From assembly GCF_000166055.1 (NCBI RefSeq), contig NC_014664.1, positions 3,441,501 to 3,505,500 of the forward strand: a DNA stretch of 64,000 nt. The letters run 5' to 3'. Within the stretch, counting starts at the first letter, position 1. The number at the start of each line of letters is the position of its first letter. The stretch is from Rhodomicrobium vannielii ATCC 17100 (GTDB lineage: Bacteria; Pseudomonadota; Alphaproteobacteria; Rhizobiales; Rhodomicrobiaceae). Below the pieces are notes generated by a model that was given only the letters and a program-made list of their open reading frames with translations, made no database searches and had not been told where the DNA came from. Both the position numbers and the translations under genes were made by a program. Below are positions 5,599 through 26,989 of this stretch, piece after piece.

Positions 5599-6890
5599 TC
5601 AAATTGGAGCTTTAGCTATGGGCAAATTATCAGGCGGCGTTCGCTTTGCGTTTAGGTCATGTGCTTGACCCACTGCGGCTCCCGCTTGAGGGGCTGGTTG
5701 AAAACGGTATTTCTCACGGTTCTGCTCGCATTCCTCCCTGACGCGATCCAGCCATGTTTCGTACCAGCACCACGTGTTTCCGACAGCAACGACACCATAA
5801 CCCTTGGCAGGCTTCTTTGCTTCGAGCCTCTTCCAAAGCTTCGTGTGAAGCGGTTCCAGCCCTCTGCTCGAATCTTCCTCACAACTTCTGTTGGTAGGTA
5901 TTTTTTCTTCTCAACCTCCTTTAGGGCGATGTCAAATTTTTGAGCAACCCTTGAGTTAGGTGGCACAAGCTCAACAGCCAAATCAGAGCTTGGAGCCCGA
6001 TTAGCTGTTTTTCGTATCATGAAAAGCCGATGGGCATAGCGTGGATCGGCCTGTTGCTCGGGGGTCAAATGGCGTTCGAATCCCTCCATCATCGTTTCGA
6101 TGTGGCGAGGCAGTGTTCCAGCTTTTTTCAGAAGCGCCCGCTGGTCGGGGCTGAAAGTCACGAATTGCAGCGCTATCGGCAAACGGCGCTCAAGGCCGTA
6201 TTGTGGACCGAAGTGCTGCTTAATAGTGTCATTGAAATTCAGGCAGCACGCCTGAAGCTTTGCACTCACGGCTTCGTCTACCCGGTTGGTCGAACGATGC
6301 TCAATCTCGTGGCGAAGTTCCAAAAGGAATCGGAGGTTATCCCTGGCTCCTTGTTCGACCGGACAGCGTTCATGTTTTAGACACTGCTCAACTTCCCAAA
6401 ACTTGTCAGCACCGTTCGGCGTTTTGACGACGACTTTCTGACCGCCCTCGTTTTTTGTGTGCCGGTAGTCGATGCCTTCGCGTTTGAACCAAGCATGCAA
6501 AAGGTAGGTCCAAGCGATGATAGCAGTGACAATAAACAACTCGGCGCGGAACGTGAGCCCCGCACTATTGAATGTGTGCACGGCCGCAATCATCGCTTCG
6601 CGGGCTTTCAGAAGCAATTCATCGCCGCGCAATGCTAGACCGGTTTCCGGGTCGACTGCTGGCCATGAGGCAATGAAGCTATCCAATTCATCAGCATCAG
6701 CGGCTTTAACCGCTGCGTGCTTCGCGCTGGTACGAATTTCGCTGATAGCGCGGTGATTTATAGAGCGCGTCGGACGAGTGAAATAGGCAAGGATATCTTG
6801 ATCGTTCGGCCAGCGCTCATCGCCTATCATTGCCTTGATTAGGGCGACTTCCCAGCTTTCAAGCTTATTCCCCCGCCTGCGCACCGGCAT
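5599..6890 (-). pseudogene. DUF3644 HEPN-type protein gene with a C-terminal frameshift
   Basis: The intact frame (5652-6890) gives 412 residues. The N-terminal 60 residues look like a helix-turn-helix region (SWEVALIKAM, then NDQDILAYFTRPTRSINH). The central part is DUF3644-like and includes R193-HEIE-H198, a HEPN nuclease-type R-x4-H motif. After about residue 350 the reading loses sense: shifting by one base near 5848 gives LWKRLEAKKPAKGYGVVAV followed by WCWYETWLDRVREECEQ, which looks genuine, ending at a TGA at 5599-5601. A single lost base explains it. Related proteins often sit in defence islands; here Mrr and a restriction-methylase are next to it. A truncated product might still fold. 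Confidence 0.65.
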
Positions 6891-6983: not shown

Positions 6984-7916
6984 TTATTCAAAGAAATCTT
7001 CGTCCAGCCTTTTGACATGCAGCGTTTCTTCGATCCGACAGCCGATATTGTAGCGGATCATGAGCCGCGTAAGGTGTTCGCCGTCGATCAGCACGATGCG
7101 TTTGCTTAGATAGTCGGCCGTTTCGCGCGCGCTCGCCGTGAATGCTGACGTGGTGACGAACAGGCCCTTGGCGGCCTTGTGCCGACCAAGGCTGCCGAAA
7201 AAGTCACGAATCGCGCCCGACCCCACGGTGTTGCCCGCCGCGTAGCGCTTGGCCTGGATATAAAAGCGGTCGAGCCCAAGCGCGTCCTGATCGATGACCC
7301 CGTCCACGCCGTCATCGCCGCTTCCGCCCAAGGCGCGGCCTGCCTCCGCTGCCGAACCTCCATACCCCATGGCGAGCAGAAGGTTCACGATAAGCCGCTC
7401 GAAAAACTCAGGGGGCGCGGCACGCACCCGATCCAGCAATTCCTGAGCAAGAGCCGCCTCGATACGCCGATGCGCTGTTCTCATCACCTCGTCGGGTGTC
7501 TGATCGGCACTGCTTTCAGCGGCAAGGGACGGGGCCTCTTCAAACGATGCCGCCGAACGATCCGTAAACAGCCGGAATTCCTCAAACCGGCTCAAGAACC
7601 GATTGTCTATGCGGTCGGGGTTTGCCGCCAGCACCTCGCTTCCGCGCGGCGTGATACGGAAATGGCCACGTCGTGTGTTTTCGACCAAACCCGCCTTGGC
7701 AAGATAGGTCTTTGCCCAATGGACCCGGTTGGCGAACAAGGTCTGTCGCCCGGACGGCAGCAAGATCGCGCGGTCTTCATCGCTCAAGGCCAGAGCTTCC
7801 GCCAGCGCACGAACAACGTCGCCAATGCGCACTTCTCCGCTATTGGCAGCCTTGAGCACCGGCAGCATGAGGCTCTGGTAATCGGGAATTGGCGATTCGG
7901 GAGTGACGGTGCTCAT
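6984..7916 (-). CDS. mrr: Mrr-type restriction endonuclease
   Basis: 310 residues from ATG at 7916, whose ATGA overlaps the stop of the methylase gene upstream, so the two are translationally coupled. The N-terminal 100 residues form a winged-helix Mrr_N domain (RVHWAKTYLAKAGL, FRITPRGSEVL). The C-terminal domain has the Mrr nuclease signature: GYGG, GGSGDDGVDGVI, then FYIQAKRY (D...Q-x-K), and GLFVTTSAFTASARE. Mrr enzymes cut DNA carrying foreign methylation (type IV restriction). The reading is intact, unlike its two neighbours. A GTG two codons upstream is an alternative start. Confidence 0.85.
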   Translation of the reverse strand: MSTVTPESPIPDYQSLMLPVLKAANSGEVRIGDVVRALAEALALSDEDRAILLPSGRQTLFANRVHWAKTYLAKAGLVENTRRGHFRITPRGSEVLAANPDRIDNRFLSRFEEFRLFTDRSAASFEEAPSLAAESSADQTPDEVMRTAHRRIEAALAQELLDRVRAAPPEFFERLIVNLLLAMGYGGSAAEAGRALGGSGDDGVDGVIDQDALGLDRFYIQAKRYAAGNTVGSGAIRDFFGSLGRHKAAKGLFVTTSAFTASARETADYLSKRIVLIDGEHLTRLMIRYNIGCRIEETLHVKRLDEDFFE

Positions 7917-10849
7917 CCGCACACCTCGACGGTCTCGGATACGTATGCACGGGTAGCTTTGCTTTGCTCTGCGGCCCGCTCCTGGTTGAGCCGGAATAGG
8001 CGGGCAAGAATTTCATCGTCGGTCAGTTTCCCGGCGCGGAAGTCTGCGCCCCAGCCATATGCGTCCGCAACCGCCTCATCAAGCGCTCTGTGCGCATGAT
8101 CGAGCCATGCGGGGCGCGCGTTATAAAGGTTGGTGAGGGTGCGCTTGGCCAGCTCCTTTGCTGCGGCATCGTTTACCGGCAGGACGCGATCCGGATAGCC
8201 GGGCACGACCTCGGGCTCGCGTCGCACGAGGTCCGGCGGATTAAGCCAGTTCTCGCGCAGTTCATTGAGCCTCGCGGCGGCCAAGGCGATAGCCTGTGCG
8301 CGGGGGTCGTCGGCATAAATGGCAGCGGAAATGTCGGGGGTGAGGCCTTCCGGAAAAGGGAACGTCAAGAATACTTCCGTGTTCGAATAAGTGATGTCGT
8401 TTCCCGCACCTATCCACGAACACTTATTAAAAGTCCAAACATCATGGAATTTGGAGTGTAATATTCCGAGTGTCGTAAAGTCATCCTTAGCAAATACGAC
8501 GAGCTTTTGATCAGGCAGCACGGAAGACGGCAGAAAGCCAAATGTCCGATAGCTCGATACCATTGGTGTGCCGATGTAACGGCTAAATCCGTTCAGAGCT
8601 TCCCTCATTTTCGGGCGTGATCGAGCATGTCGCCACCAAACTTCTCGTTCAATCTTCGCCCGTACAGCAAATGAGCCATCATTTTTGAGCCGCTGACGGT
8701 AGGGTCGCACCCGCTTCTCGATATACGCATACGGCGTTTCATAATATGATGACTCTTTTTCGGACACCTCAGTCCCGAAGTCGATAACCCACTTGTCGGG
8801 GCGCAGCCCGTTGAAATCGTCTCCGTTGAGACTTGGCTTCAAAACGTCGCTGTTTGCTCGCCCGTTTACGTTACGTGGTGCGGCCAGCATTGCCCTAGCC
8901 AACGCGGCGGGGAGTTCAAACTCTCCATTCAATATTACCCCTACAAAGCAAACGCCCTTATTCTGATCGAGCCGCTGTGTTCTGGTTAAATCCAAGCCGT
9001 TCGAAGCGGCCGTTTGGCCATTGGTAACGTCGAAGCAGACGAGCGAAACCCGCACTGCGGCTCCTTCAATAGTCCATTCTTCGTCGCTCCATGCAGCGAA
9101 AATTCGCCCCTTGTCGACAATGTTCTTGAGCGGTTCCCTGTTAGCCCCGCTCCGGATCGAATTAGTCGCTACCAATCCGGCGCGTTCGAGTTTGCCCTCT
9201 AGCATGTTTGCAAATGCGCTAGCAAACCAGTAACACACCAGATCGACGCCGCTTGGCACTTCCGGCCATGCCTGGCGTAAGGCTAGCGTGTAAGCCTCGC
9301 CTAATTCGCCGATCATTTACTTGTTGCCTAAGAACGGCGGATTCCCAACGACCACGTCCGCTGAGGGCCATTCCGCCCGCGTGCCGTCGAGGGCGAGAAC
9401 GGCATCTCGGTTCTCGATGTTTTCCAGCGTCCGCAGGATCGGATTTCGCGCCGCATCAAAACCGTTGCGGCGCATCCATTGGATTTCGCCGATCCATACC
9501 GAAACTCGCGCCAGTTCTGCTGCATAGGGATTGATTTCGATGCCAAACACGTTTTCCGGCCCGACAGACGGGGCAAATCGCCCGAGCCCCAGCGCTTCGG
9601 CGTCGAGATTGGCGCGGTGCTCTATATCCTTCAGCGCCAGAAGCGAAAGATAAAGAAAATTGCCTGAGCCGCACGCGGGATCGAGCACTCGGAAGTTGCG
9701 AAGCCGTTCAACGAATTTCGAATGATGCTCTTTGGCCGCTCGCAATGCCGCTTCTTCGGCGCGGCGAGCTACCATAAACACCTTGCGGGCCTCGGCCTGT
9801 GTCGCCGGAACGCGAGCCCGCGCTTCGGCAGCCTTGTCCATCTGGCCTGCGATGGCGGCCTTCGCTTCAGTCCATTCGCGCTCAAGCGGCTCGATGATCA
9901 CCGGCCGCACAATCTGCATGATCTTGTCGCGATCCGTATAGTGCGCCCCAAGCTGGCTGCGCTTGTTGGGATCGAGCCCGCGTTCAAATAAGGTGCCGAA
10001 AATTGAGGGATCAATTTCCGACCAGTCAAGTCGCGCGGCGGCAAGCAGGTTGGCTATGTCGTCAGCCTCAAGCGGCAAGGCGCTGTCATCGTCGAAAAGG
10101 CCGCCGTTGAACCATTCGACTTGTTCAAAGCCCACCATGCCGCCTGAACGCATCGCAGAAAACAGGGTTTGGGCATGGGCGGAGAACTGGCTCGGATTGC
10201 TCCGGCTCGCCTCCAGCATGCGCGTGAATATCGCGTCCGGTAACAGACGAACGTCTTCGGCGAACATGCAGAAGACCAGACGATTGACGAAATGGGCAAC
10301 CTGATGAGCCTCGTTCCCACGGTCGCGGAGCCGTTGAGCGAGGGAAGCGAATTCCCGTGCCGCTTCCTCGGTCAGCATTTGACGGGTTTTAGCCGGGCGC
10401 AACCTTTCTGGGTCTTCGAAGCAGGCGCGCAGCAAGTCGCGCTTCGCCCCATTGGCTAGGTCTTCCAGCGTGATTTCGTGGACCTGCTGGACCGTGTTTG
10501 TCCAGTTGGTGTGGATGCGAATGCGCTCCATGTCGGACACGATCAGGAGCGGCGGGCTTTCAAGAGCGATTGAGTAGCGAAGAAGCTGGTCGAACGCCTT
10601 TTGAAGGTTGGCGGCGTGTCCCTTGTATTCCCAGGCGAAGCAGCCCTTTCGCCAAACATCAGCCCAGCCTTCGCCGCCACTCGTTTTTGTCGCGCCCTTC
10701 TCGAACGTGAACCACGTCCCTTTCGGATCGGCTTTGATCGGGTCTTCAATGCCGAGCAGGCGACAAATGTCGTTGAAGTGGCTTTGGGAGGCGGATCGCT
10801 CCTTGAGCTCGACGTTGCGCCATTTTGAAAGGAACTCGTGCGGGGTCAT
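7913..10849 (-). pseudogene. MmeI-like restriction-methylase gene split by an in-frame ochre stop
   Basis: Two readings in the same frame, 10849-9320 and 9316-7913, are separated only by TAA at 9317-9319. The N-terminal part begins MTPHEFLSKWRN and carries a nuclease-like FAWEYKG motif, then the adenine methylase motifs LDPACGSGNFLYL (motif I) and NPPFLG (motif IV). The stop falls three residues after NPPF. The C-terminal part starts at once with MIGELGEAY and LVCYWF, and ends with the target-recognition-like TEVFLTFPFP and LTNLYNARPAWLDHAH stretches. Joined, it is about 979 residues, the usual size for class I SAM-dependent MmeI/type IIG enzymes. One base change (for example TTA to TAA) accounts for the break. 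The ATG at 10849 fits the family start. Confidence 0.8.
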
Positions 10850-11384
10850 GCGTTCTCGCATCAATGGCTCAGCCCCTAACCAGAGCGTCGCGCGCAAAAG
10901 GGCGATCAAAAATCACTTCGCAACCGAACAGACGTGCGCCGACCTTACGACGACTCACGCTTTGCCATTTATGACTGAATTACTATTTTAGGCAATCGCG
11001 GCGCGTTGCATTGCGTCAATCAAAAAACGCCATTGCTTTCACCCAAGGGGCGTTAACAGTAAAGGTCATCCGTCCGGTCCCAGCAAACAGGCGGCGGTTA
11101 TATTCCGCATGTCTGACTTTCGCGGCGTCCGTTCCTCTCGTCAAGCATCGAGAGCGGAAAGAGCATCACCTATCTACCCGGGTAGATTCCTCTCAGGGCC
11201 TTATCCATTGCGGTGTCCAAACGGTTGCCTCGCCGCCGTGTCCGGAAATCATGTCGCCTTGAGCGGTGTATCGTTCACTTTCGAAACGCCGATGATAAGA
11301 CCACGCGCGCCAGCAGGTGTCGAAGGCGCCTCTTAATGAGCCAGGTCGAACATTCGACCTGTGCACGCATGGAGCGGCTTGCTA
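10850..11384. other. Gene-free stretch upstream of the restriction operon
   Basis: No convincing gene on either strand. It should hold the promoter of the leftward restriction operon. It contains the palindrome at 11173-11186 and ends at the TA target of the IS630 copy. Confidence 0.5.
11173..11186. repeat. Island palindrome, copy 1
   Basis: TCTACCCGGGTAGA, a perfect 14-base palindrome (16 bases with the flanking A and T). One of four related copies in non-coding parts of the island (others at 12584, 13803 and 27790). The right-hand flank (TTCCTCTCAGGGC) also resembles that of the other copies, so all four share orientation. It lies about 320 bases upstream of the restriction operon. Confidence 0.6.
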
Positions 11385-12524: not shown

Positions 12525-12583
12525 TAGATTCCGCCAGGAGATTGGGGATTTCGCAAGCGGCGCGCGCGAAGGCGCCGCCTGCG

Positions 12584-12597
12584 TCTACCCGGGTAGA
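12584..12597. repeat. Island palindrome, copy 2
   Basis: TCTACCCGGGTAGA, identical in its 14-base core to copy 1. The flank TTTCTGCCAGC matches copy 4 (TTCTGCAAGC). It lies between the right end of the IS630 element and the stop of the small broken gene. Confidence 0.6.
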
Positions 12598-12630
12598 TTT
12601 CTGCCAGCCCTATTTCACTATCAGCTCGGT

Positions 12631-13487
12631 CTACTGATGCATGGCGAGGTGTTCCTGGAGGACTTCAATGGCGGCCATAGCTACATCAGGGCCGCAGGAG
12701 GCAGCAGCGGTCGCAAGCTTTTGCAGCAGGACATCGGGGTCCTGGTACTTCAACCGCTCCTCCAGCGTCATGCTGCCCATAAAGTCGCCGCAGATAAGCT
12801 CCAGGGCGACGTTGTCGTGAGCGGTTCCGGTGTCATGCTTCACCTTTTCGAGAGCCAACTCTACAATTTCGGCCTGCCCCTGATAAAGGCGAAAGGTCTT
12901 GACCTGTTTTTGCTCCTCGCCCGCTTCCAGGCTCTTGCCTTTCGCTTTCGCCTTCCGGACGAGTTCGTTGAGGTCACCCCTCGACATCTTTTCTGCCGCC
13001 TCAAGCCACTCCGCTGCGTTTTCGGGGGTAACGACGCCTGAGATCGCACGCAGCTTGGTCCAGCCGATGGCTTCAAGCTGCGCGGCAGAAATCTTGCAAT
13101 TCGAAAGCACGTCGTAGATGCGCATCAATACGCTCTCGCCCGCCTGATGCCCTTTCCCTTCTCGAGCCATTCATTAAAGGACGAGTAAGGAGCGAACCAG
13201 CCCTCTCGTTTCACGCGCAATAGCCGACCACCCATGCGGAAGGCCGTCTTGTCGTAAAGATTTGCCGAGGAGTCGATATCGCTCAGGGTCTCTTCGAGAT
13301 CTGCGTTCTCGATTTCATGAACGATGTCGCCAAGTTCGCTGTCGTAGGGCTCGGTCCATCCGGCAGGCGCGGGAAGGCTCGTCTCCGGCGCCTCAATTTG
13401 AAGCGCCGCTTCGACAAGCGCATCGTGACCAATAGGCACGCTTGCATCCTTCGGCCGAGTTATCTTCTTCTTGAAGGTGACGATCAT
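12631..13487 (-). pseudogene. Hypothetical mobile-element protein gene broken by one base
   Basis: Two overlapping frames, 13487-13125 (120 residues, ending IRRARAY) and then 13126-12631 (continuing MRIYDVLSNCKISAAQLEA). Between them the sequence is TATTGATGCGC; adding one G (TATTGGATGCGC) gives RARAYWMRIYDVL and a single protein of about 285 residues. I recall similar proteins with a run like F-x-EWxEKxxGIRRAxAYW-I from mobile elements but know no function. The C-terminal half is Lys/Glu-rich and helical. The break also creates a TGATG stop-start overlap, so the second half might be reinitiated. Confidence 0.55.
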
Positions 13488-13802
13488 TTGCGGAGGCCTT
13501 TCCTGGAAAATGGAGAGGCACCGGCACGCCTGCCGAAAGACATAGAGAGCCCCGAACAGTTTTCATGTCGGTGCCCTCCTTGGCTATGGCCAGACATCTG
13601 AGAACTCGGGATGATCCGTCCTCACCCTGCATATCGGGCTCGATGATCGAGCATGCGGGAGAAGACATCAGCACTCGATTTCCATCGACGTGCTGCGGGA
13701 GCGCAAAGCGCGGATACCGAGACGTTTCTCAGCGTCTGTCGGAGCAGAACGTAGGGTGCATTTATTTCAAAGGCAAGCAATCAACTGGCTTGAACGCGGT
13801 AG
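13488..13802. other. Gene-free stretch upstream of the reverse transcriptase locus
   Basis: No convincing gene on either strand; the open frames crossing it are Arg/Ser-rich and look like shadows. It must hold the promoter of the leftward small gene that starts at 13487, and perhaps that of the rightward RNA/reverse transcriptase unit. Confidence 0.4.
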
Positions 13803-13816
13803 TCCACCCGGGTAGA
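13803..13816. repeat. Island palindrome, copy 3
   Basis: TCCACCCGGGTAGA, one base off the perfect palindrome and identical in core to copy 4 at 27790. It sits 23 bases before the structured RNA element and 107 bases before the reverse transcriptase start, so it may be an operator or promoter element for that unit. Confidence 0.6.
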
Positions 13817-13838
13817 CACCGCACTGCCTTGGCGACAA

Positions 13839-13890
13839 GGAGGTCGATCCGCTGTAAAAAGCGGCAGGCGCACGGAAGTGCGCGACCTCC
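13839..13890 (+). ncRNA. Candidate structured RNA: three-way junction upstream of the reverse transcriptase
   Basis: GGAGGTCG (13839-13846) pairs perfectly with CGACCTCC (13883-13890). Enclosed are two hairpins: CCGC (13849-13852) with GCGG (13861-13864) over an 8-base loop, and CGCAC (13869-13873) with GTGCG (13878-13882) closed by GGAA, a GNRA tetraloop. Together this is a compact three-way junction. It lies 32 bases before the reverse transcriptase start. Several reverse transcriptase defence systems need a nearby structured RNA, so this could be the partner RNA; it could also be a leader that only controls translation. No homologue is known to me. Confidence 0.5.
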
Positions 13891-13896
13891 CTTTGA

Positions 13897-13921
13897 GCGC
13901 ACTCCAAGAAAGGAGATGCGC
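13897..13921 (+). promoter_or_regulatory. Hairpin covering the reverse transcriptase ribosome binding site
   Basis: GCGCACTCC (13897-13905) pairs with GGAG-A-TGCGC (13912-13921) around the loop AAGAAA, with one bulged A. The paired GGAG is the Shine-Dalgarno sequence for the GTG start at 13923, so the hairpin would hide the site and lower translation unless opened. Confidence 0.5.
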
Positions 13922-13922
13922 G

Positions 13923-15325
13923 GTGCCAGTTGCCCTGATCGAAGGCGTTCTGTTCGAACACAATCTTTCCGACGCCTATCTGAAACGGGTGCGGAAGGAG
14001 ATCGGTCTCGCGCGCAAGACCACAAAAAAGCTGACCCAGACCTCATTCAGTCAATCCAGAACGGTGACTAGCTGGCGAAGCAGGAAGCCGTCACCGCACT
14101 TCTCACCGATCAGGGCGTCAAGCTCGTCTCCGCCCTCAGCGCCAACCGGAAGCTCGCGGCCTCCAAATGCAAGACCCTCGACGAATGCCTTGAGGTCTCG
14201 ACCACGCTCGACCTTTGGCATCCCATCACGGAGCCGGTGCGGGTCTGGCCGATCATGAAGTCGAACGGCGGCTATCGCATGATCCACGATCACGGTTTGC
14301 GGCACAGGACGGCGCAGCACCTCGTCAAGCGCGTGGTCGACGTCTTCTTTGTGCCCCGCTCCTTCCAGTATACCCATCTCGGCTATCAGGCCGCGATCCA
14401 GCAGACGAAGGCTTTCATCACGCAAGGTTATGTCCATGTCGCGCATCTGGACATCACCGACTTCTTTGGCAGCTTCGACCTTGAGAAGCTGCTTTCCGAG
14501 CTGCCCTTCAAGCAGGCAACGGCAGGAGCGCCCTCCAATGGGGGGCTACCGCCCCAATCGGGGAAAGGGAAAGGACTGCCGCTCCCGCATGAAGTGGTGG
14601 AGCATGTCGTCACAGGACGATACATGACTGTGCGTTTGAAGCTCAGGAAGAATCCCTATTGGAATTCTCCCCTCCCTTCCCCTGCACAGTTGCTTGACAC
14701 CGCCCGCCTGGGAATTCCCCAGGGCTCGGCTTGTTCATCGGTCGTGGCCGCGTATACGGTTTCGGGTCTGGAGTGGTCTCCCACTCCGGATGTGAAGCTC
14801 GTCAATCTGGCTGACGATTTCCTGCTTCTCGCAAAAAGCCCAAAGCTTTGCGCGGAGGAAACCGATGCACTCGCCGAGACCATAGGGAAGCTCCCGGGCG
14901 GGACTTTCAAGCTCAAGCTCAAGACCGCGACAGAGGCCAGCAACGGATTTCAGTTTCTGGGGCACCACATTCAACTCGTCGACGGCTCGCTTCATGTCGC
15001 CCCGACCCTTGCGGCCGACGAGGACCTTGTAGGGAAGCTCGACGACCTCGAAGTGAAACTCGGCGAGATCGTGTTTCCCAAGCTTTCCAAGACCGTCAAG
15101 GTCGACAAGAAGGCCGCGATCCAATCCCTCGCGAAGTCCGCCGCCATTCTGGCTGGATGGAAGTCCGCCTTCTCCCAATGCTCGGACATCGACGGCTTCA
15201 TCGCGCCCTATGTCGATACGCTGAGCTGGTGGCTCGATGAGATCGGCGCGACCGTCGACGACCTCAAACAGGCTATCATCCCCGATATGGAGTACACGCC
15301 AAGTTTCTATGCCTTGGGGAAATAA
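13923..15325 (+). pseudogene. Reverse transcriptase gene of unassigned type, with one frame change and one stop
   Basis: A GTG at 13923 opens a 36-residue N-terminus (ALIEGVLFEHNLSDAYLKRV...). At A-AAA-AAG (14024-14030) the sense moves to the -1 frame, giving ADPDLIQSIQNGD, then TAG at 14069-14071, then LAKQEAVTALLTDQG and on without a break to 15325, about 467 residues in all. The polymerase motifs are clear: NGGYRMIHD, the catalytic HLDITDFFGSF, GIPQGSACSS, VNLADDFLLL (LADD in place of the usual YADD) and GFQFLGHHI. All three catalytic Asp are present. I see no retron NAxxH or VTG motif and no group II intron maturase domain. The conserved core lies wholly after the stop and could start at GTG 14237. 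Confidence 0.75.
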
Positions 15326-15349
15326 GTCAGGAATGGGAGCAAGAACGCC

Positions 15350-15578
15350 GTGTTCGACAAGCATGCCGCGATCCAACAGCTCGCGAAGCCCGCCGCGATC
15401 GTCCATGGCTGGCAGGCCGCATTTTCGCAGTGCGACTGCATTGACGCAGTCCTGTCGCCCTACCCCGAAAATCAGGCCTCATGGCTGGAGACCATTGGCG
15501 CTACCGAGGCTCAGATGAAACACGCCAATCACGTCGGATATGGTGTACCGCCCTGGGTTCTATGCCTTCGGGAAGTGA
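15350..15578 (+). pseudogene. Diverged tandem copy of the reverse transcriptase C-terminal module
   Basis: Immediately after the reverse transcriptase stop, the text FDKHAAIQQLAKPAAIVHGW, then AFSQCDCID and WLETIGATEAQMKHA, repeats residues of the enzyme's own tail (VDKKAAIQSLAKSAAILAGW, AFSQCSDID, WLDEIGATVDDLKQA). After one frame change near 15527 it ends VYRPGFYAFGK and a stop, against EYTPSFYALGK in the enzyme. So a unit of about 75 residues is present twice. It is either the end of a second, mostly deleted reverse transcriptase gene or a module that repeats in this family. Confidence 0.65.
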
Positions 15579-15871
15579 TGCGGGTTATCGAGATAAATGC
15601 AGGCGTCAGCGCGACGAGGTCGTCGCGAAGGGTGATGACCATTTCGGTCGTTATGCCACTGCTGAGCGCCGAAGAGTTCTACGGTTTATTCACGGCTTCC
15701 GAATTGTCGCCCGACCGCGAAGAGCAAGCGCGGCATTCTCATTCTCGGACGCGGATGCACTATGTCGCTCGCGAGAAGATATTGTGCCGAGATGGTCGCT
15801 TGCGGACGCTCGCTCCTATCGAACGGAAGTTCGCTTGTCGCAACAAAGCGGACTTCCGCAAGGAACATTAG
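15578..15871 (+). CDS. Possible small protein after the reverse transcriptase module
   Basis: 97 residues beginning MRVIEINAGVSATRSSRR, from an ATG that overlaps the stop of the preceding module as TGATG. Composition is mixed (SAEEFYGLFTASELSPD, then an Arg/His-rich tail). I recognise no family and there is no separate ribosome site, so it is only a possibility. Confidence 0.2.
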   Translation: MRVIEINAGVSATRSSRRVMTISVVMPLLSAEEFYGLFTASELSPDREEQARHSHSRTRMHYVAREKILCRDGRLRTLAPIERKFACRNKADFRKEH

Positions 15872-19286: not shown

Positions 19287-19586
19287 AAGACGATCCCTCA
19301 ATGAACCGTCACACTCGCAGCCGTTCGTGCAAAATGGAAGGTGAGGTCAGAACGCCGCTTACCATATTTTCGCCATAGTGCTGACAGATCGCTTACTAAA
19401 CAATTGTTATATATTGACTATTTCTTCTTCCTGTGGATAACCCAGGTTGCTAATTTGGGGCCTAATTAAGGCAGATTATGCCGGGCGCACCTTTCCTGAG
19501 AGGCGAGGCAATTGACACACGCCTTCACTTCCTCAAGACATCCATCAATCGAAGGTTTTGCTGCAAATCGGGGAGGCTTTGGCGTT

Positions 19587-20168
19587 ATGTTCGCCAGACT
19601 GGGGATCAATTCAACCGTCCCATCGCTGATGCCGCCTTGGGCGGAGCGATGGTTCAGTTTTGGGGCCTCGTTGTTCGTGGCGGTCACATTGTCCGTGAAC
19701 GTTCAAGCGGGAAGTCAGGACGTCACGATAACCGTCCAGACTGTCGTGCCGCCTGCGTGTACCGTATCGAACACGACGCCGGTCGTCGATCTGGGCGACA
19801 TCACTCGTACAGGGTCTGTATCTGTGCGGGTCGGCTTCTCCTGCAATTCGCGGTTTGCCTTTTCGCTCAGCTCGCAGAATGGCGCTGTCACGCTAAACCG
19901 CACAACAACCGCAAACCCGCCATTTCTGACCAGCCTACCCTATTCGTTATCTTATCAGCTGGAAACGGACGCGAAAATTCTTGTTGACACGTGCCATTCC
20001 GGCAACATGAAGGAGGCCACCTCTATCTGTGGAGGCGTCTCGAATGCGAACGCTTCGGCGTTCCAGAAAAATATAACACTCGGATTTTCATGGGATTCCG
20101 GAGATCAGTTTCCAATCGCCGGGACTTATCAGGACGTGGTCTTTCTTCGAATTTCGCCTGAGCTCTGA
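19587..20168 (+). CDS. Csu-type fimbrial subunit (spore coat U domain), first
   Basis: 193 residues from ATG at 19587, chosen because GGGGAGG lies nine bases upstream. A signal segment (FSFGASLFVAVTLSVNVQAG) leads into a single SCPU domain: VVPPACTVSNTT, VSVRVGFSCNSRFAFSLSSQNG, and the C-terminal GTYQDVVFLRISPEL that serves as the donor-strand partner region. Archaic chaperone-usher pili are built from such subunits. Position matches csuA/B in the csu gene order. Island-borne: it starts 225 bases after the IS66 copy, which may affect its promoter. Confidence 0.8.
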   Translation: MFARLGINSTVPSLMPPWAERWFSFGASLFVAVTLSVNVQAGSQDVTITVQTVVPPACTVSNTTPVVDLGDITRTGSVSVRVGFSCNSRFAFSLSSQNGAVTLNRTTTANPPFLTSLPYSLSYQLETDAKILVDTCHSGNMKEATSICGGVSNANASAFQKNITLGFSWDSGDQFPIAGTYQDVVFLRISPEL

Positions 20169-20255
20169 TCTGTTGTGACGAGAGGCTTTGCAACCTGGTT
20201 GACTATCCGCGAGAACGAAATATTTTCAACAAAATGTATATAATGTAGGTGCGTC

Positions 20256-20834
20256 GTGTTCGTATTGAGTCGCCATGTGTGTGTCCAACTTGCCTTCTTC
20301 CTCGCGGGAGCGAGGTCCGCTTACGCGGAGGAAGGAGCGCGCCAAGCCATCGTTCTGCAAGGCAGGGCGCAACCCGTCTGCCATTTCGAGGCGGCGAGGG
20401 CGGTACGCTCAACCAACATGGCGGTAGGCGGCGGCTCAGCCTCGCAGAACATCCTCAGCGTGACCCAGCTTATTGATAGCAACGCCCGCGCCGTTGCGAC
20501 GTCAATTGCCGTTACGCTCAAGGGCATGTGCAACCATCCCCATGTCATGACGGTTAGTTCCGGAAATGGCGGGTTGGACCCTCAGACCAGGACAGAGGCA
20601 GGATCGGGCTTCGTCCAGCGGTTCAACTACGGCGCGAGTGTCGCGTGGGGACCGTCTGTCGTGACGCTGCAAACTGGTGGTATTCAGGGGCAATCGACAC
20701 CCGAGGCCGTCGCTCCGGGCGCGGTCTCCGGTGATCTTCGCATCGACATCGAGGTCGATGATCCTGGTGATTCGCCGGTCGTGGCGGGCACCTACACAGA
20801 TAATCTCGTAATCACCTTTAGGCCACTGCTTTAA
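20256..20834 (+). CDS. Csu-type fimbrial subunit, second
   Basis: 192 residues from a GTG at 20256. A signal peptide ends near AGARSAYAEE. The mature part has the SCPU features: VCHFEAARAV, an internal Cys at TLKGMCNHPHVMTVSSGNGG, and the C-terminal AGTYTDNLVITFRPLL. It matches csuA in order. The start codon and the poor ribosome site suggest lower expression than the first subunit. Confidence 0.75.
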   Translation: MFVLSRHVCVQLAFFLAGARSAYAEEGARQAIVLQGRAQPVCHFEAARAVRSTNMAVGGGSASQNILSVTQLIDSNARAVATSIAVTLKGMCNHPHVMTVSSGNGGLDPQTRTEAGSGFVQRFNYGASVAWGPSVVTLQTGGIQGQSTPEAVAPGAVSGDLRIDIEVDDPGDSPVVAGTYTDNLVITFRPLL

Positions 20835-20845
20835 GGAAGGGCACT

Positions 20846-21439
20846 ATGCAACCCGCTTCTAAAAATGCTTACTATTCCGTCGTGTCGACCCTGCTTCTTG
20901 CAGCGGGTTTTTGCGTGCCGCAAGCGACGGCCCAGTCGGCATCGTCCAGCGCGAGCACGTCCTTTCAAATAAAGGGCGTAGCCCCGCAGGTCTGCCAGCT
21001 TCCCGGACAGGCTGCCCCATCAGGTGCAGCATCCAACGCGACCTACTCCTCGAACATGGTGACCATTGAAAGTCTGATCGATAATACGACCGCCTTCGTG
21101 AAATCGTCGAGCCTTACGCTCAAGTTCGACAAGGCTATGTGCAATTATGAAGCCTATCTGAGCTTGTCGAGCCAGAACAGCGGGATGACGTCGACCGATG
21201 CAAGACAAGCCACGGCCGGGGAGTTCTTGAGCAAGGTCGACTACACGGTGACCGCCAATTGGGGATCAATCCGCGAATTGATCCTCGATACCTCCCAACA
21301 GCGCACCGCTCAACTTCAGACTGCGGGCGCAAATTCGGGCACGCTGACGCTCACTTTTGCCACGAAAGACGGCGACATTCCTCTTGTGAACGGCACTTAC
21401 ACCGACACCATAGCGGTGCAGATCGGTGCGAAGCTTTAG
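20846..21439 (+). CDS. Csu-type fimbrial subunit, third
   Basis: 197 residues from ATG at 20846 with AAGGAAGGG upstream. A signal peptide (TLLLAAGFCVPQATAQ) precedes VAPQVCQLPGQAAP, then KAMCNYEAYLSLSSQNSGM and the C-terminal NGTYTDTIAVQIGAKL. It begins 11 bases after the second subunit, so they share a message. It corresponds to csuB by position and resembles the second subunit more than the first. Confidence 0.77.
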   Translation: MQPASKNAYYSVVSTLLLAAGFCVPQATAQSASSSASTSFQIKGVAPQVCQLPGQAAPSGAASNATYSSNMVTIESLIDNTTAFVKSSSLTLKFDKAMCNYEAYLSLSSQNSGMTSTDARQATAGEFLSKVDYTVTANWGSIRELILDTSQQRTAQLQTAGANSGTLTLTFATKDGDIPLVNGTYTDTIAVQIGAKL

Positions 21440-21530
21440 TTAAAGGAGGGCGTCGGGCAACGCCTTCCTGATCAGAACGGAAAACCAGACAGAAAGAGAC
21501 CGTCCGCGGCAACGCGAGCGGGTGGGGCAG

Positions 21531-22268
21531 ATGTGTGCATTTTTAACCCGCGTATTCTTCGTTTCTATGTCCCTCGCTTTTGCCGGTCCGTCGGCTCATG
21601 CGCTCGGGGTGACGCCACTGGTTGTTGAGATAAACTCGGGTGACCCGTCGCAGCGTACAGCGCAAATCCTGGTCAATAACGATAGCGACAGGGATGTCCC
21701 AATCGAGGTCGTCGTTTCGCGCGCGGAGATTGCCGAAGACGGCAGCCGGCAGGTGACGCCAGCGCCGAATGATTTTCTCATCTTCCCGCCGAGCCGAATG
21801 CTCAGACCTCACTCGAAGCAGGTTTTCCGCGTGCAGTGGGCGGGCACCCCGGTCGCAAGGAGCCAAACTTATATACTGGCTGTGAACCAGCTACCCGTGG
21901 CGATGCCGGAGAAAAAAAGCGGCTTTCAGATCGTGTTTAATTTCGACGTCGTGGCAAACGTCGCCCCGCCCTCGGGAAAAAAGGCGCTCGACGTGCTTTC
22001 CAGCGGCGTCGTGAGCGAAGACGGAAAAAAATACGTGAGCCTGCTTCTCAGCAACCCGGGAACCGTGCATTCCAAGCTGAGCGAGGCCTCCTTGACGCTG
22101 AAGTCGGGCAGTTGGGCAAAGACGCTTTCCCCGGGCGAGCTGGAATACGCCGTCGGCATTGGCCTCGTCCAGCCGGGTAAGAAAAGACGGTTCAAGCTCG
22201 CAGTTCCGATGCCTGCTGACGTGAAAAACGTGGGCGCTGAGGTCGAGCTCGGCAAAGCAATGCGTTAG
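21531..22268 (+). CDS. Fimbrial periplasmic chaperone (CsuC-like)
   Basis: 245 residues from ATG at 21531 (a GTG three codons upstream is possible). A signal peptide ends near GPSAHALG. The PapD-like N-terminal domain shows VTPLVVEINSGDPSQRTAQI, FLIFPPSRMLRPHSKQVFRVQWAG (with the Arg and Lys that anchor a subunit's C-terminus) and AVNQLPV. It stabilises subunits in the periplasm by donor-strand complementation and hands them to the usher. Confidence 0.85.
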   Translation: MCAFLTRVFFVSMSLAFAGPSAHALGVTPLVVEINSGDPSQRTAQILVNNDSDRDVPIEVVVSRAEIAEDGSRQVTPAPNDFLIFPPSRMLRPHSKQVFRVQWAGTPVARSQTYILAVNQLPVAMPEKKSGFQIVFNFDVVANVAPPSGKKALDVLSSGVVSEDGKKYVSLLLSNPGTVHSKLSEASLTLKSGSWAKTLSPGELEYAVGIGLVQPGKKRRFKLAVPMPADVKNVGAEVELGKAMR

Positions 22269-22295
22269 CAGGCAAGCATAACCGTTGAGCATACC

Positions 22296-24797
22296 ATGCA
22301 ATGCCGTTCACCTGTTCTCGGGATTGTGGCCTTGCTTGCTTGCGCAATAGGGGCGCGTGCCCAAGATGATGCTGGGGTGAGCGTGATGCAAAAAAATCAG
22401 GGGTCTGGGCATACAATGATCGCAAGCAAGACTTATACAATCAGCCTCGCCCTCAAGGAGGGGCGCTTTTACCTTGGCGACATACCCACCCAGCTTTTCG
22501 GAGAAGACGCATATTCCTTAGACCAGGAAACCTTCCTGAAGCTTGCTGCGCCGATTCTGAAACCCGAAATTGCGGCGGCTGTCCGCGCACTCCCTGCCTC
22601 CGGCGGGTTTGTCAGTCTTCAGGCTCTCAAGGAGGCTGGCTTGCCGGTTTCCTTCGATATCGGTGAGATGACCCTCAGCTTTTTTCCAAAAGCCGAGCAA
22701 AGGCCTGGTGCGCATATTTCGCTCGCCGAAGAGCAGATCGTTCCACCCGAGCATCTGGCCCCTCGAGCAAACTTTTCAGGTTACGTCAACATCACAGCGG
22801 GCGCGCAATATACTTCACCGGACATAACGTCAAAGCGGGGGGCCTTCTCTCCCGGAATCGGTCTTGCATTCGCCGTTCGCGTGATGGGTGTTGTGGTGGA
22901 GAACGAGGTTGCCTCCTCGAACGGTCTTGCGATGCGGCAGGGAACCCGCGCGGTTTACGACGATGTCGGCAACGCCCTTCGTTATACGGCAGGCGACATC
23001 ACCCCAGCGACTACGGGTATGCAGAACGGCGGGAGTTTCCTCGGGGTATCCGTTCAGAAGTCCTACGATAAGCTCCAGCCGCAGAAAAATATCCGGCCTA
23101 CCGGACACCGCTCTTTCCGTCTTGAGCGCCCCTCCGAGGTCGATATCCTTATTAACGGTCAGGTTGTTCGCCGACTGGAGATGGCGCCCGGCGATCACGA
23201 CATCAGCGAGTTGCCCCTGAGAACCGGCGAAAACAACATCACGCTCGAAATCACCGACGATACCGGCAAGCGCACCTCATTCAACTTTTCCCAATTTTAC
23301 GATTACGCCCTGCTGACGCCCGGCGTCAGCGATTGGGGTTTCTCAGCAGGCTACAGAAGCGGATCCGGGTTGACCGGTCTGCAATATTATTGGAGTGAGC
23401 CAGCTGCGACGGGGTACTATCGCCTTGGTCTAACGGAAGATCTGACCGGCACAGCTCATCTTCAGCTTGGCTCCCGTTCGGCGATGGGCGGGTTCATGGT
23501 CATCTCACCTACGTGGCTCGGCCGTGTCGCCGCCGAGCTGGCGGCCAGCAAAAGCTGGCATGGTGGAGAAGGTTTCGCGGCGGCACTGACCTACACGCCC
23601 GAGGCGCTGCTCAAGCGTTGGGAGGTGCCTGGCAGATTCCAGGTCGGGGCCGAATACCGAAGCGCTGATTTCGCGCCGATATTTTCCACCTCGAGCGCTC
23701 TCGAAGGGTTTTCGCTCAACGGGTTCTACACGCTCGAACTTCCTGATGATTTCGCCCTTTCCCTTTCGCTAAATGCGGTCGCGGGATCTGCGTTCTCGTC
23801 GTCGCGCGTTGGCGGAGGCGTGACGCTTTCCAAATCGGTCCGCCCAAACCTTAACTGGGCGGTTTCATTGTCTCGGGACAATACGACGAACTTGGCAGGC
23901 GAATATCAATCTTCGTGGACGGTCATGGGGCGCCTGAACATCCGGGCCGGAAGAGATACCGAGATCGCGTTCACACAGGATGGGCTTCATGGCAGTTCCA
24001 TCCTTGGGATCTCGACTGCTGGCGAGACGGAAAACGGCCATTATGCGGTAAAGGCCGATATCGAGAAAATCCCGCATGCAGTCACGGGCTCCGATCCAGA
24101 AAATAAGGTCGATTTCAGCGCTGCCTATTCCGACACTCGGTTCGATATCGCGGCCAGTCGCTCTCGCCAAGTCTATGGCCTCAATCGCGATGTTGCCAGC
24201 GATGTGAGCACCGTCTCGGCCTCGGGTGCGATTGCGTTCGCGGATGGCCATGTCGCGTTTGGCCGCGCTGTGACTGACAGCTTTGCCATCGTTGCTCCTC
24301 ATAAATCGCTCGCGGACGCAACGCTTCGTATCAAGGCAGGCGACGCGCCGTCGCGCGCTGTCTCCGGCACCCTGGGGCCTGCGCTTGTTTCCGACCTGCC
24401 ATCCTATGCTCATTCCCAGTTGCCCCTCGAAGCCGACGGCGCGCCCGAAGGTTACGATCTCGGCTCCGGCGTCTTCGATGTACAGCCCGCTTACAAAAGC
24501 GGCTATGTGCTGAAGGCCGGATCCGACTACAGCGTGATGGCGGTCGGAAATCTCGAGATGAATGGTCAACCGCTGGCACTCTTGAGCGGTCTTGCAAAGG
24601 AAGAGGGCGTCGCCCAACCCCGCAAGGTTGCGCTCTTCACCAATAGCGGCGGGCGTTTCAGCATCGAGGGCCTGAAGCCCGGCCGCTGGCGCATCGAGAT
24701 GCTCGGCGAAACCCCGCAGTGCTTCGAACTGACTGTTCCAGAAAAAACGATGGGCATCTACGATGCAGGTGCTGTCACCCAAAGGTGCGCGGCATGA
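22296..24797 (+). CDS. Fimbrial outer-membrane usher (CsuD/FimD-like)
   Basis: 833 residues. Signal peptide ends near CAIGARAQDD. The N-terminal periplasmic domain is followed by a 24-strand-type barrel with the usher signatures HRSFRLERPSEVDILINGQ and RLEMAPGDHDISELPLRTGENNITLEITDD, and a plug and C-terminal region ending with a Cys pair (QCFEL ... QRCAA). It exports chaperone-bound subunits through the outer membrane and assembles the pilus. Its stop overlaps the next start (ATGA), coupling it to the tip gene. Confidence 0.9.
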   Translation: MQCRSPVLGIVALLACAIGARAQDDAGVSVMQKNQGSGHTMIASKTYTISLALKEGRFYLGDIPTQLFGEDAYSLDQETFLKLAAPILKPEIAAAVRALPASGGFVSLQALKEAGLPVSFDIGEMTLSFFPKAEQRPGAHISLAEEQIVPPEHLAPRANFSGYVNITAGAQYTSPDITSKRGAFSPGIGLAFAVRVMGVVVENEVASSNGLAMRQGTRAVYDDVGNALRYTAGDITPATTGMQNGGSFLGVSVQKSYDKLQPQKNIRPTGHRSFRLERPSEVDILINGQVVRRLEMAPGDHDISELPLRTGENNITLEITDDTGKRTSFNFSQFYDYALLTPGVSDWGFSAGYRSGSGLTGLQYYWSEPAATGYYRLGLTEDLTGTAHLQLGSRSAMGGFMVISPTWLGRVAAELAASKSWHGGEGFAAALTYTPEALLKRWEVPGRFQVGAEYRSADFAPIFSTSSALEGFSLNGFYTLELPDDFALSLSLNAVAGSAFSSSRVGGGVTLSKSVRPNLNWAVSLSRDNTTNLAGEYQSSWTVMGRLNIRAGRDTEIAFTQDGLHGSSILGISTAGETENGHYAVKADIEKIPHAVTGSDPENKVDFSAAYSDTRFDIAASRSRQVYGLNRDVASDVSTVSASGAIAFADGHVAFGRAVTDSFAIVAPHKSLADATLRIKAGDAPSRAVSGTLGPALVSDLPSYAHSQLPLEADGAPEGYDLGSGVFDVQPAYKSGYVLKAGSDYSVMAVGNLEMNGQPLALLSGLAKEEGVAQPRKVALFTNSGGRFSIEGLKPGRWRIEMLGETPQCFELTVPEKTMGIYDAGAVTQRCAA

Positions 24798-25627
24798 AGC
24801 TCGCCTTTATTGTCGCGATGCTGCTGGCAACAGAAGTCTCTGCACATGCCTGCGCCGGGAAAATCGAAACCTTCTCGGCACGGCGTCCCCTGATCTACAA
24901 TCCGTTTTCCGTTGTGGATGCGCACCTGCGGCTCGCCGTCACGATCCGAAATACAGGCTCTGAAACATGCTCTTATCGGCTTTCGATCCCAGACAGCTAT
25001 CGTCCGCTTCTCTTCGAGAACATCGCCTTCACAATTGATGCCCGCGATGCAAGCAATGAAACGCCGGGGACCTTCAGCGTCACGACGCCTTCGGTTGCTG
25101 CGGGGCAAACGCATCAGTTGAGATTGAGATTATCGGCTTCGCGTGGCCAGCCGGCGCTGTCGGGCGACCTAACGAAAAGGGTCGGCTTCGTGTTGACCGA
25201 GGCCGGAGCGCAGGGCTTGCCGCTGGATCAGACCGAGCTTGATCTTCACTGTCTGATCCCGCCGGTTTTCGAGATCAATGTCGCAGGCTCCGGTTTGCGC
25301 GCCACTCTTGAAATAGACGACTCGAAACTGCCCTCGAAGGCCGTCGTGTTACAGACGCGGAGCACTCAAAGCCATCGGCTTCAAATTCGCGCCGAAAACG
25401 GCTTCCTAGTCCGTGAGGGCAGTCTACCTAGTGCAACAACCATCATCCCCTATGAAGTGGCGATCGACGGTTTGTCGCGCCAACTCCAGAAAGACGCAGT
25501 TTGGCAGGTGGATGGTCCCGCTGGCGAGGCAAGCCGTCGATTGAGCGTCACCATCGGCGACACTTTCAACAAGCTTGCAGGGCTCTACAAGGAGGTGATC
25601 ACCGTTCACATCGATTCAAAATTGTAA
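24794..25627 (+). CDS. Fimbrial tip/adhesin-like subunit (CsuE-like)
   Basis: 277 residues. The ATG at 24794 overlaps the usher stop. A short signal peptide (FIVAMLLATEVSAHACAG) leads to a two-domain product: an N-terminal beta-rich half (RRPLIYNPFSVVDAHLRL) and a C-terminal SCPU-like half ending AGLYKEVITVHIDSKL. By position and two-domain build it matches csuE, the tip subunit, though it is somewhat short for that family. Binding specificity cannot be read from the sequence. Confidence 0.65.
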   Translation: MKLAFIVAMLLATEVSAHACAGKIETFSARRPLIYNPFSVVDAHLRLAVTIRNTGSETCSYRLSIPDSYRPLLFENIAFTIDARDASNETPGTFSVTTPSVAAGQTHQLRLRLSASRGQPALSGDLTKRVGFVLTEAGAQGLPLDQTELDLHCLIPPVFEINVAGSGLRATLEIDDSKLPSKAVVLQTRSTQSHRLQIRAENGFLVREGSLPSATTIIPYEVAIDGLSRQLQKDAVWQVDGPAGEASRRLSVTIGDTFNKLAGLYKEVITVHIDSKL

Positions 25628-25651
25628 GTATCAATCAAGAGGAATGAAGTC

Positions 25652-26023
25652 ATGCGTTATTTTCCTAGCACGATCCTCGGCTGCGGCGTGATCATCGCTC
25701 TCAGCATGAACATGCCCGTATTTTACAGAGCGGATCCGAACCTCGTTCTCAGCGCCGCAAGCGTGTCCGAACTCAGGGCTTTACAGGGTGCGAAGCTCCT
25801 CGAAAACCGTGTTGCGATCAGTCCCAATGCGGGTGACACAGCTTTCGTGACCTTGTACCTGACTGAGGCGCAGTTCTCCGCCGAGGGGCCGCTCACAAAA
25901 ACCGAGATAGGTTACAACCTTCATCTGACCACCCGGTCGCGGTGCTACGAGCTCGAACCAGGCTGCCTCGAAATCAGGAATAAATCGGTTTTGAAGGCTA
26001 TTTCGGTGGGCGTGGCGCTTTGA
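25652..26023 (+). CDS. Small exported protein at the end of the pilus operon
   Basis: 123 residues with AGAGGAATGAAGTC before the ATG. The N-terminus is hydrophobic (STILGCGVIIALSMNMPVFY), a signal peptide or anchor. The rest has two Cys near the C-terminus (RCYELEPGCLEIR). The 24-base gap to the tip gene puts it in the same operon. It is not part of the classical six-gene csu set and I do not recognise it. Confidence 0.5.
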   Translation: MRYFPSTILGCGVIIALSMNMPVFYRADPNLVLSAASVSELRALQGAKLLENRVAISPNAGDTAFVTLYLTEAQFSAEGPLTKTEIGYNLHLTTRSRCYELEPGCLEIRNKSVLKAISVGVAL

Positions 26024-26050
26024 TCTCTCTACCCGCAGGTAGCATCGAAT

Positions 26051-26989
26051 ATGGACGATAGTATATTTCAGCGCGGCAATCTTTCACTCAGCAGCATAGA
26101 ACACTTTGTTGCCAGTGTAGAAGACGGATCGATGAGTGCAGCCGCGCTGAGACTCGGCATCTCACCGGCCCTCGTATCGAAGTCGATTGCACGGCTCGAA
26201 AAAAGGACGGGGGTTCGCTTACTCCACCGGACTACGCGATATTTTGCTTTAACTACGCCGGGGCTGGCCTTTTACGAGCGCGCATGCCACATCATTGATG
26301 GTTTGCGGCAAGCCGAAGCGCTGGTGATGTGGGAGAGCCCTGCACAGAAATGCAGCCTTTGCATTCTCACGTCCGATTTTTTGGCGGTGGGGGTGCTCTG
26401 GCCGTGTCTTCGAAAGCTACAAGTCCTCTACCCGGGCATCTCAATTGAGATCCGAACGGGAGATTTCGATGTGGCACAATATTCATCGGGCAGCGCCAAC
26501 ATCAAGGTTTGGACTGGTCCATCAGAAGAGAGAGCGGGAGCGATAAGGCTGGCGCACTGGCCAAATTTCTTCGTGGCGTCAAAACAATACTTGGAAGACA
26601 ACGGCTTTCCCACTGACTTAGACCACCTAACGGACCACGTCTTTGTCGCCGGGCTGGAAGATGCATGGACAATTCAGGGACCGGAAGGTCTGAAGACCGT
26701 GCGTCACAAGGCCGTTTTCAGAAGCAATGCCCCCGACCTCATTCAAGAGGCGATCCGCGCCGGGCTCGGCATCGGCCTAACCACACCGCTTGGTCTGGAA
26801 AGGGAATTGGCCTCGGGCCAAGTGTTGCGCGTGCTTCACTCTCATGCCTCTCCAATGTCGGAAGGCCTGTGGGCGGAAACTCCGGCAAGAGGGTGCCATC
26901 CCGCTCATGATCTAGTTCTCGACTCCATTCGCGACGCCTTGAACGAGAAGCTCTTGGTAGATTTGCCCAGAAATCAATGGGCAGCGTAA
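26051..26989 (+). CDS. LysR-family transcription regulator
   Basis: 312 residues. The N-terminal winged helix-turn-helix is clear (LSSIEHFVASVEDGSMSAAA, LGISPALVSKSIARLEKRTG, VRLLHRTTRYFALT), followed by a substrate-binding domain (EIRTGDFDVAQYSS, DHVFVAGLEDAW, GLGIGLTTPLGLE). It lies 27 bases after the pilus operon in the same direction. LysR proteins usually control neighbouring genes, so control of the pili is a reasonable guess. A gapped inverted repeat CTACC-CGCA-GGTAG at 26029-26042 just before the start could be its own site. Confidence 0.85.
   Translation: MDDSIFQRGNLSLSSIEHFVASVEDGSMSAAALRLGISPALVSKSIARLEKRTGVRLLHRTTRYFALTTPGLAFYERACHIIDGLRQAEALVMWESPAQKCSLCILTSDFLAVGVLWPCLRKLQVLYPGISIEIRTGDFDVAQYSSGSANIKVWTGPSEERAGAIRLAHWPNFFVASKQYLEDNGFPTDLDHLTDHVFVAGLEDAWTIQGPEGLKTVRHKAVFRSNAPDLIQEAIRAGLGIGLTTPLGLERELASGQVLRVLHSHASPMSEGLWAETPARGCHPAHDLVLDSIRDALNEKLLVDLPRNQWAA

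Follow-up and report, generated by a model that had tools for sequence, protein, structure and literature searches.

The window examined here, a stretch of 64,000 nucleotides of contig NC_014664.1 of Rhodomicrobium vannielii ATCC 17100 (whose genome is a single contig of 4,014,469 bases), carries a reverse transcriptase (RT) gene at positions 13923-15325, which raises the question of what class of bacterial RT this gene represents and whether it is still in use. A first-pass annotation had read it as a possible member of an undescribed RT group, and had pointed to a tree of bacterial RTs and to the neighbors of homologs as a way to find out. Our best explanation, held with some but not great confidence, is that the locus contains an inactivated copy of a stand-alone RT from a small unnamed clade, which is nearest to group II-type RTs, travels as cargo of mobile elements and probably serves in defense.

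The annotated single open reading frame (ORF) did not survive inspection, since no single frame spans the 1403 nt from 13923 to 15325. We aligned the DNA to an intact copy from Rhodomicrobium sp. Az07 (L010:5851-7254; a single ORF of 467 codons encoding 467 aa, 96% identical). The 5' part of the pseudogene (13923-14071, + strand) opens with a GTG start and keeps the frame of 13923 to about position 14040, where a single nucleotide is deleted; in the original frame, a TAG then occupies 14069-14071, where Az07 reads CAA. The main part (14072-15325, + strand), 417 residues from fingers to thumb with 96% identity to Az07, was recognized through Pfam RVT_1. Because there are two separate lesions, a sequencing slip is an unlikely explanation. 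The same goes for a programmed frameshift, which would need to bypass both the deletion and the TAG when the intact Az07 copy needs neither. We conclude that the window RT is probably a pseudogene and that the system is most likely dead here. It is improbable, in our estimate, that the window copy still works through an internal GTG at 14237, giving a 362-aa protein devoid of the N-terminal extension. A shortened functional product deserves mention because the 3' part is 97.6% conserved relative to Az07 and better kept than the 5' part (30/1254 versus 12/150 differences; p 0.0009); besides, dN/dS against Az07 is about 0.36 outside the lesions. Yet no clear ribosome-binding site precedes this GTG, and decay seems to be general, judging by the frameshift and nonsense mutations of the RT, its broken partner gene and a nonsense codon in a nearby type IIG gene.

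What remains of the protein is recognizably an RT. Pfam RVT_1 matches 14072-15325 with 37.8 bits (cut-off 29.6), and motifs A (LDITDFF), B (GIPQGS) and C (LADD) are in place, so that the RT core with its catalytic Asp, one in LDITDFF and both in LADD, was correctly called by the first-pass annotation. The same is true for the lack of retron and group II hallmarks, as both kinds of model stayed far below their cut-offs (e.g. 48 bits for the group II equivalog model TIGR04416, against 300). A “VTG” within VVTGR might invite a retron reading; however, its place is in the stretch from motif A to motif B, and one of the relatives, G034, does not have it. LADD itself is present as reported, yet does not hold up as a group hallmark, since relatives carry YVDN, YADN, HCDN, YVDD or YGDD. 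Nor is the C-terminus, ending in TPSFYALGK, without a match: it has counterparts in the homologs of Az07 and G034 as well as in a decayed duplicate at 15340-15582 (+ strand). This stretch of 243 nt, about 67% identical at the DNA level and frameshifted near its end, is what is left, immediately downstream of the first RT gene, of the 3' end of another, diverged one.

The window and Az07 share a unit of 2.77 kb (12572-15325, 94% identity) that ends at the RT stop codon and has unrelated flanks in the two genomes. It consists of a divergently oriented DUF3102-like gene (12631-13487, - strand), an intergenic region and the RT. In the window, the loss of 4 nt near 13129 shifts the frame of the DUF3102-like gene, whose Az07 counterpart is intact (331 aa). 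We considered the unit as a transposon and rejected this, as no terminal inverted repeats span it and palindromes occur at its left end and in its middle. The annotated setting among defense genes was borne out by an Mrr-type (type IV) restriction enzyme (6984-7922), a DUF3644/PDC-S19 gene (5652-6890) and an MmeI-like type IIG restriction-modification gene (7913-10909, - strand), the last of which is interrupted by one in-frame stop at 9317-9319 (NPPFLGNK*MIGELG) and reads as two ORFs. The island in the window is thus decaying. Judged from their translations, nearby transposase genes read as IS630- and IS66-type, and downstream of these IS-type genes lies an apparent chaperone-usher fimbrial-type cluster (19512-26989). 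Elsewhere in the same genome there are two further RTs, one of which (L001) groups with CRISPR-type RTs, whereas the other (L002) looks DGR-type by its GLPIGN motif. Another R. vannielii RT has been named CRISPR-RT4 (Toro and Nisa-Martinez 2014, PMC4244168), and L001 may be the same protein.

The region between the two divergent genes of the shared unit is itself unusual. The 92 nt preceding the RT start (13831-13922) are 97.8% identical between the window and Az07, compared with 90.5% for the stretch upstream. Within them we predict a structured RNA-like element, a three-way junction in which a GGAGGTC stem encloses two hairpins (13839-13890, + strand; unchanged in Az07), followed by a hairpin that would pair the ribosome-binding site of the RT, AAGGAG (13897-13921, + strand). 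The fold of junction plus hairpin is more stable than expected in either copy (z -4.6 in the window, -4.0 in Az07); in a scan across the leader, the two strands alike showed z between -2 and -4, which does not single out the relevant one. An Rfam search of the RT surroundings, leader included, returned no RNA match. The upstream stretches of the five other family members fold no better than shuffled sequences, so the structured leader belongs to the two Rhodomicrobium copies and a family-wide upstream RNA was discarded.

Further upstream, the region that separates the divergent genes contains a 14-bp palindrome, TCCACCCGGGTAGA (13803-13816, + strand), with additional copies at 11173, 12584 and 27790. 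Besides its site in this region, the palindrome (TCYACCCGGGTRGA) is found shortly beyond the point where the DUF3102-like gene ends. Five sites fall within 37 kb of this genome and three are present in Az07; three other Rhodomicrobium genomes have none. In the island, TCYACCCGGGTAGA is clustered (nine strand matches with up to two mismatches, against 0.3 expected), and elsewhere it occurs near a DUF3102-like gene (L103, L096). We regard TCTACCCGGGTAGA as a candidate operator. A related 14-bp palindrome, TGCACCCGGGTGCA, is situated at L050:10356-10369, about 155-170 nt upstream of the RT of the distant member G902; in this form (ACCCGGGT) it is the sole occurrence in 19.5 kb. At the four other members we found none; the palindrome is therefore no hallmark of the RT family at large, although the G902 site may be a lead.

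Repeated rounds of searching in about 1,050 genomes delineated a family of six divergent members, namely the Az07 protein and those of G034, G553, G902, G995 and G434, which are 20-37% identical to Az07. Members that had not been part of the profile scored far above other RTs (G995, 181 versus 73 bits; G434, 145 versus 64 bits). We also ran the profile against 103 genomes sampled from the phylum; outside Alphaproteobacteria no sequence scored above ordinary RTs, and all members known here come from this class alone. Viral contigs, phages and plasmids contained no close relatives, their matches being mostly group II RTs. We left out one deltaproteobacterial match (L011; 35% over 74 residues), which is antisense to a larger ORF. 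Across the family, motif C reads LADD, YVDN, YGDD, HCDN, YADN or YVDD, with LADD peculiar to Rhodomicrobium. The Asp of motif A and the first Asp of motif C are invariant, whereas the second can be Asn: half of the members (3/6) have an xxDN motif (YADN, YVDN or HCDN), compared with none of the 37 non-family RTs in the alignment, a single one of which departs from DD.

As for placement, a tree of 43 sequences with a limited reference set of RT classes united the family as one clade with long branches (support 99/97), apart from the group II (99/94), CRISPR-type (100/100) and retron (100/99) RTs as well as from a DGR-type RT, UG17, Drt3a and G2L4. Several sister groups are compatible with the data, as unions of the family with G2L4, with UG17/Drt3a or with the DGR RT were not rejected (p-AU 0.25-0.42). 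None of the UG, DRT, retron and Abi models of PADLOC 2.0 gave any member more than 57 bits, when true UG17 and Drt3a proteins reached 460 and 390 bits in the same search. The best PADLOC model for the family was that of CRISPR RTs (62 bits); unlike those, however, the family has no Cas fusion detectable by Pfam and no cas genes among the neighbors scanned. By profile and fold comparison, its nearest relatives would be group II-type RTs: a group II maturase was the best solved relative of the family profile (1.4e-25), and a fold search with a structure model of mediocre quality (pLDDT 71) was topped by G2L4 and group II RTs (6me0). A literature search that covered few subscription papers found no description of this clade. 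Measured against this partial reference set, the clade looks unassigned outside the named classes tested, and its intact alphaproteobacterial members suggest a small undescribed branch of RTs. In this respect the first-pass annotation was on the right track, even if it missed both the broken state of the copy at hand and the nearness to group II-type RTs.

The neighborhoods of the members gave a split picture. Integrases or tRNA genes adjoin four of the six. In G995, a tRNA gene, an integrase and one ORF precede the RT, behind which come more genes and one for type I restriction; in G902, a tRNA gene and an integrase are next to an RT on the opposite strand; in G553, an integrase is about 2.3 kb away, and in G034 two tRNA genes lie beside the RT. 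The RT of G434 adjoins a gene whose product has a helix-turn-helix look. Az07 has PDC-M11 genes upstream, and downstream a SLATT_1-like gene (below cut-off) and a gene for a protein with a prokaryotic STING domain. The latter (L010:9739-10869, - strand; 29.1 bits, cut-off 27.1) has a weakly nucleoside-deoxyribosyltransferase-like N-terminus and no PADLOC match, and is located near the SLATT_1-like gene at L010:7404-9200. Mobile-element genes are thus a common theme, but no partner gene recurs across the six loci.

Given the affinity to group II-type RTs, one could take the family for relics of ordinary group II intron proteins that lost their ribozyme and are functionless. The order of RT motifs is indeed that of group II maturases (PDB 6me0, GsI-IIC), the closest solved protein by profile is such a maturase, and two members show weak RVT_N similarity. 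We nevertheless deem this unlikely: no intron RNA was detected at the six member loci (two control loci, L014 and L028, were positive), neither a GIIM domain (by Pfam) nor an HNH domain is present in the family, group II RTs cluster without it, and five divergent intact genes besides Az07 speak for a function that was kept. A kinship with G2L4, which would make the protein a domesticated group II-like RT with a role in mending double-strand breaks through microhomology end joining, has still less to recommend it and in our view is improbable. The top fold match is a G2L4 RT (9d4s), a free-standing, intron-less enzyme of comparable size whose N-terminal extension and helical thumb would be shared by the modeled family protein; there is also a weak profile match (2.4e-8), and the tree allowed the union. 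However, true G2L4 proteins behave differently. With the solved G2L4, two of them (L034 and L065) reach 220-235 bits, and in the tree they join L067 in a separate clade (100/99), whereas Az07 has no match to the solved protein at E 0.1 and the family lacks YIDD, the mark of the G2L4 group (PMC4244168).

Alternatively, the upstream structured element could act as template or partner RNA of a DRT- or retron-like defense RT. The stable three-way junction just upstream of both Rhodomicrobium copies would fit such an arrangement, as would the defense neighbors (a type I restriction gene in G995 and PDC-M11 genes in Az07) and weak PADLOC matches to UG17 and UG4, both candidate DRTs. Those matches, at most 55-57 bits, reflect generic RT similarity, for an ordinary group II RT scores 166 bits with the UG17 model, more than any family member. 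Moreover, neither the UG nor the retron models fit (with the latter, Az07 does not exceed 18.6 bits), retron RTs are a separate clade, the other five members have no significantly stable upstream fold, and the element resides in an apparent leader with a hidden ribosome-binding site. All in all, we consider this scenario quite unlikely.

We therefore return to a stand-alone RT carried by mobile elements as the favored reading. Intact members, with the Asp of motif A and the first Asp of motif C invariant, would be expected to copy RNA or DNA templates into DNA at a standard two-metal active site. Integrative elements may carry them as single-gene cargo that most likely acts against phages or rival elements, a role we put first on account of the genomic context and the precedent of other RTs carried as cargo. 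Within Rhodomicrobium, the RT and its divergent DUF3102-like regulator would make up one module, possibly controlled by the palindrome and by the leader hairpin over the ribosome-binding site; the module's copy in the window is most likely dead.

In summary, the window itself is chiefly an example of how such a module decays, and the wider interest resides in its relatives. More tentatively, and with less than even confidence, we propose that the clade constitutes a new group of RTs, borne by integrative elements of Alphaproteobacteria, which accepts Asn at the position of the second catalytic Asp and works as a one-gene system for defense or element maintenance. In a survey of complete bacterial genomes, 88 of 25,570 RTs, i.e. 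<1%, were left unclassified (PMC8934634), and since so few are, a coherent clade that falls into none of the named classes would be worth adding to the classification. Besides, several RT genes, intact in all other respects, naturally encode an xxDN version of motif C, which is relevant to the need for the second Asp.
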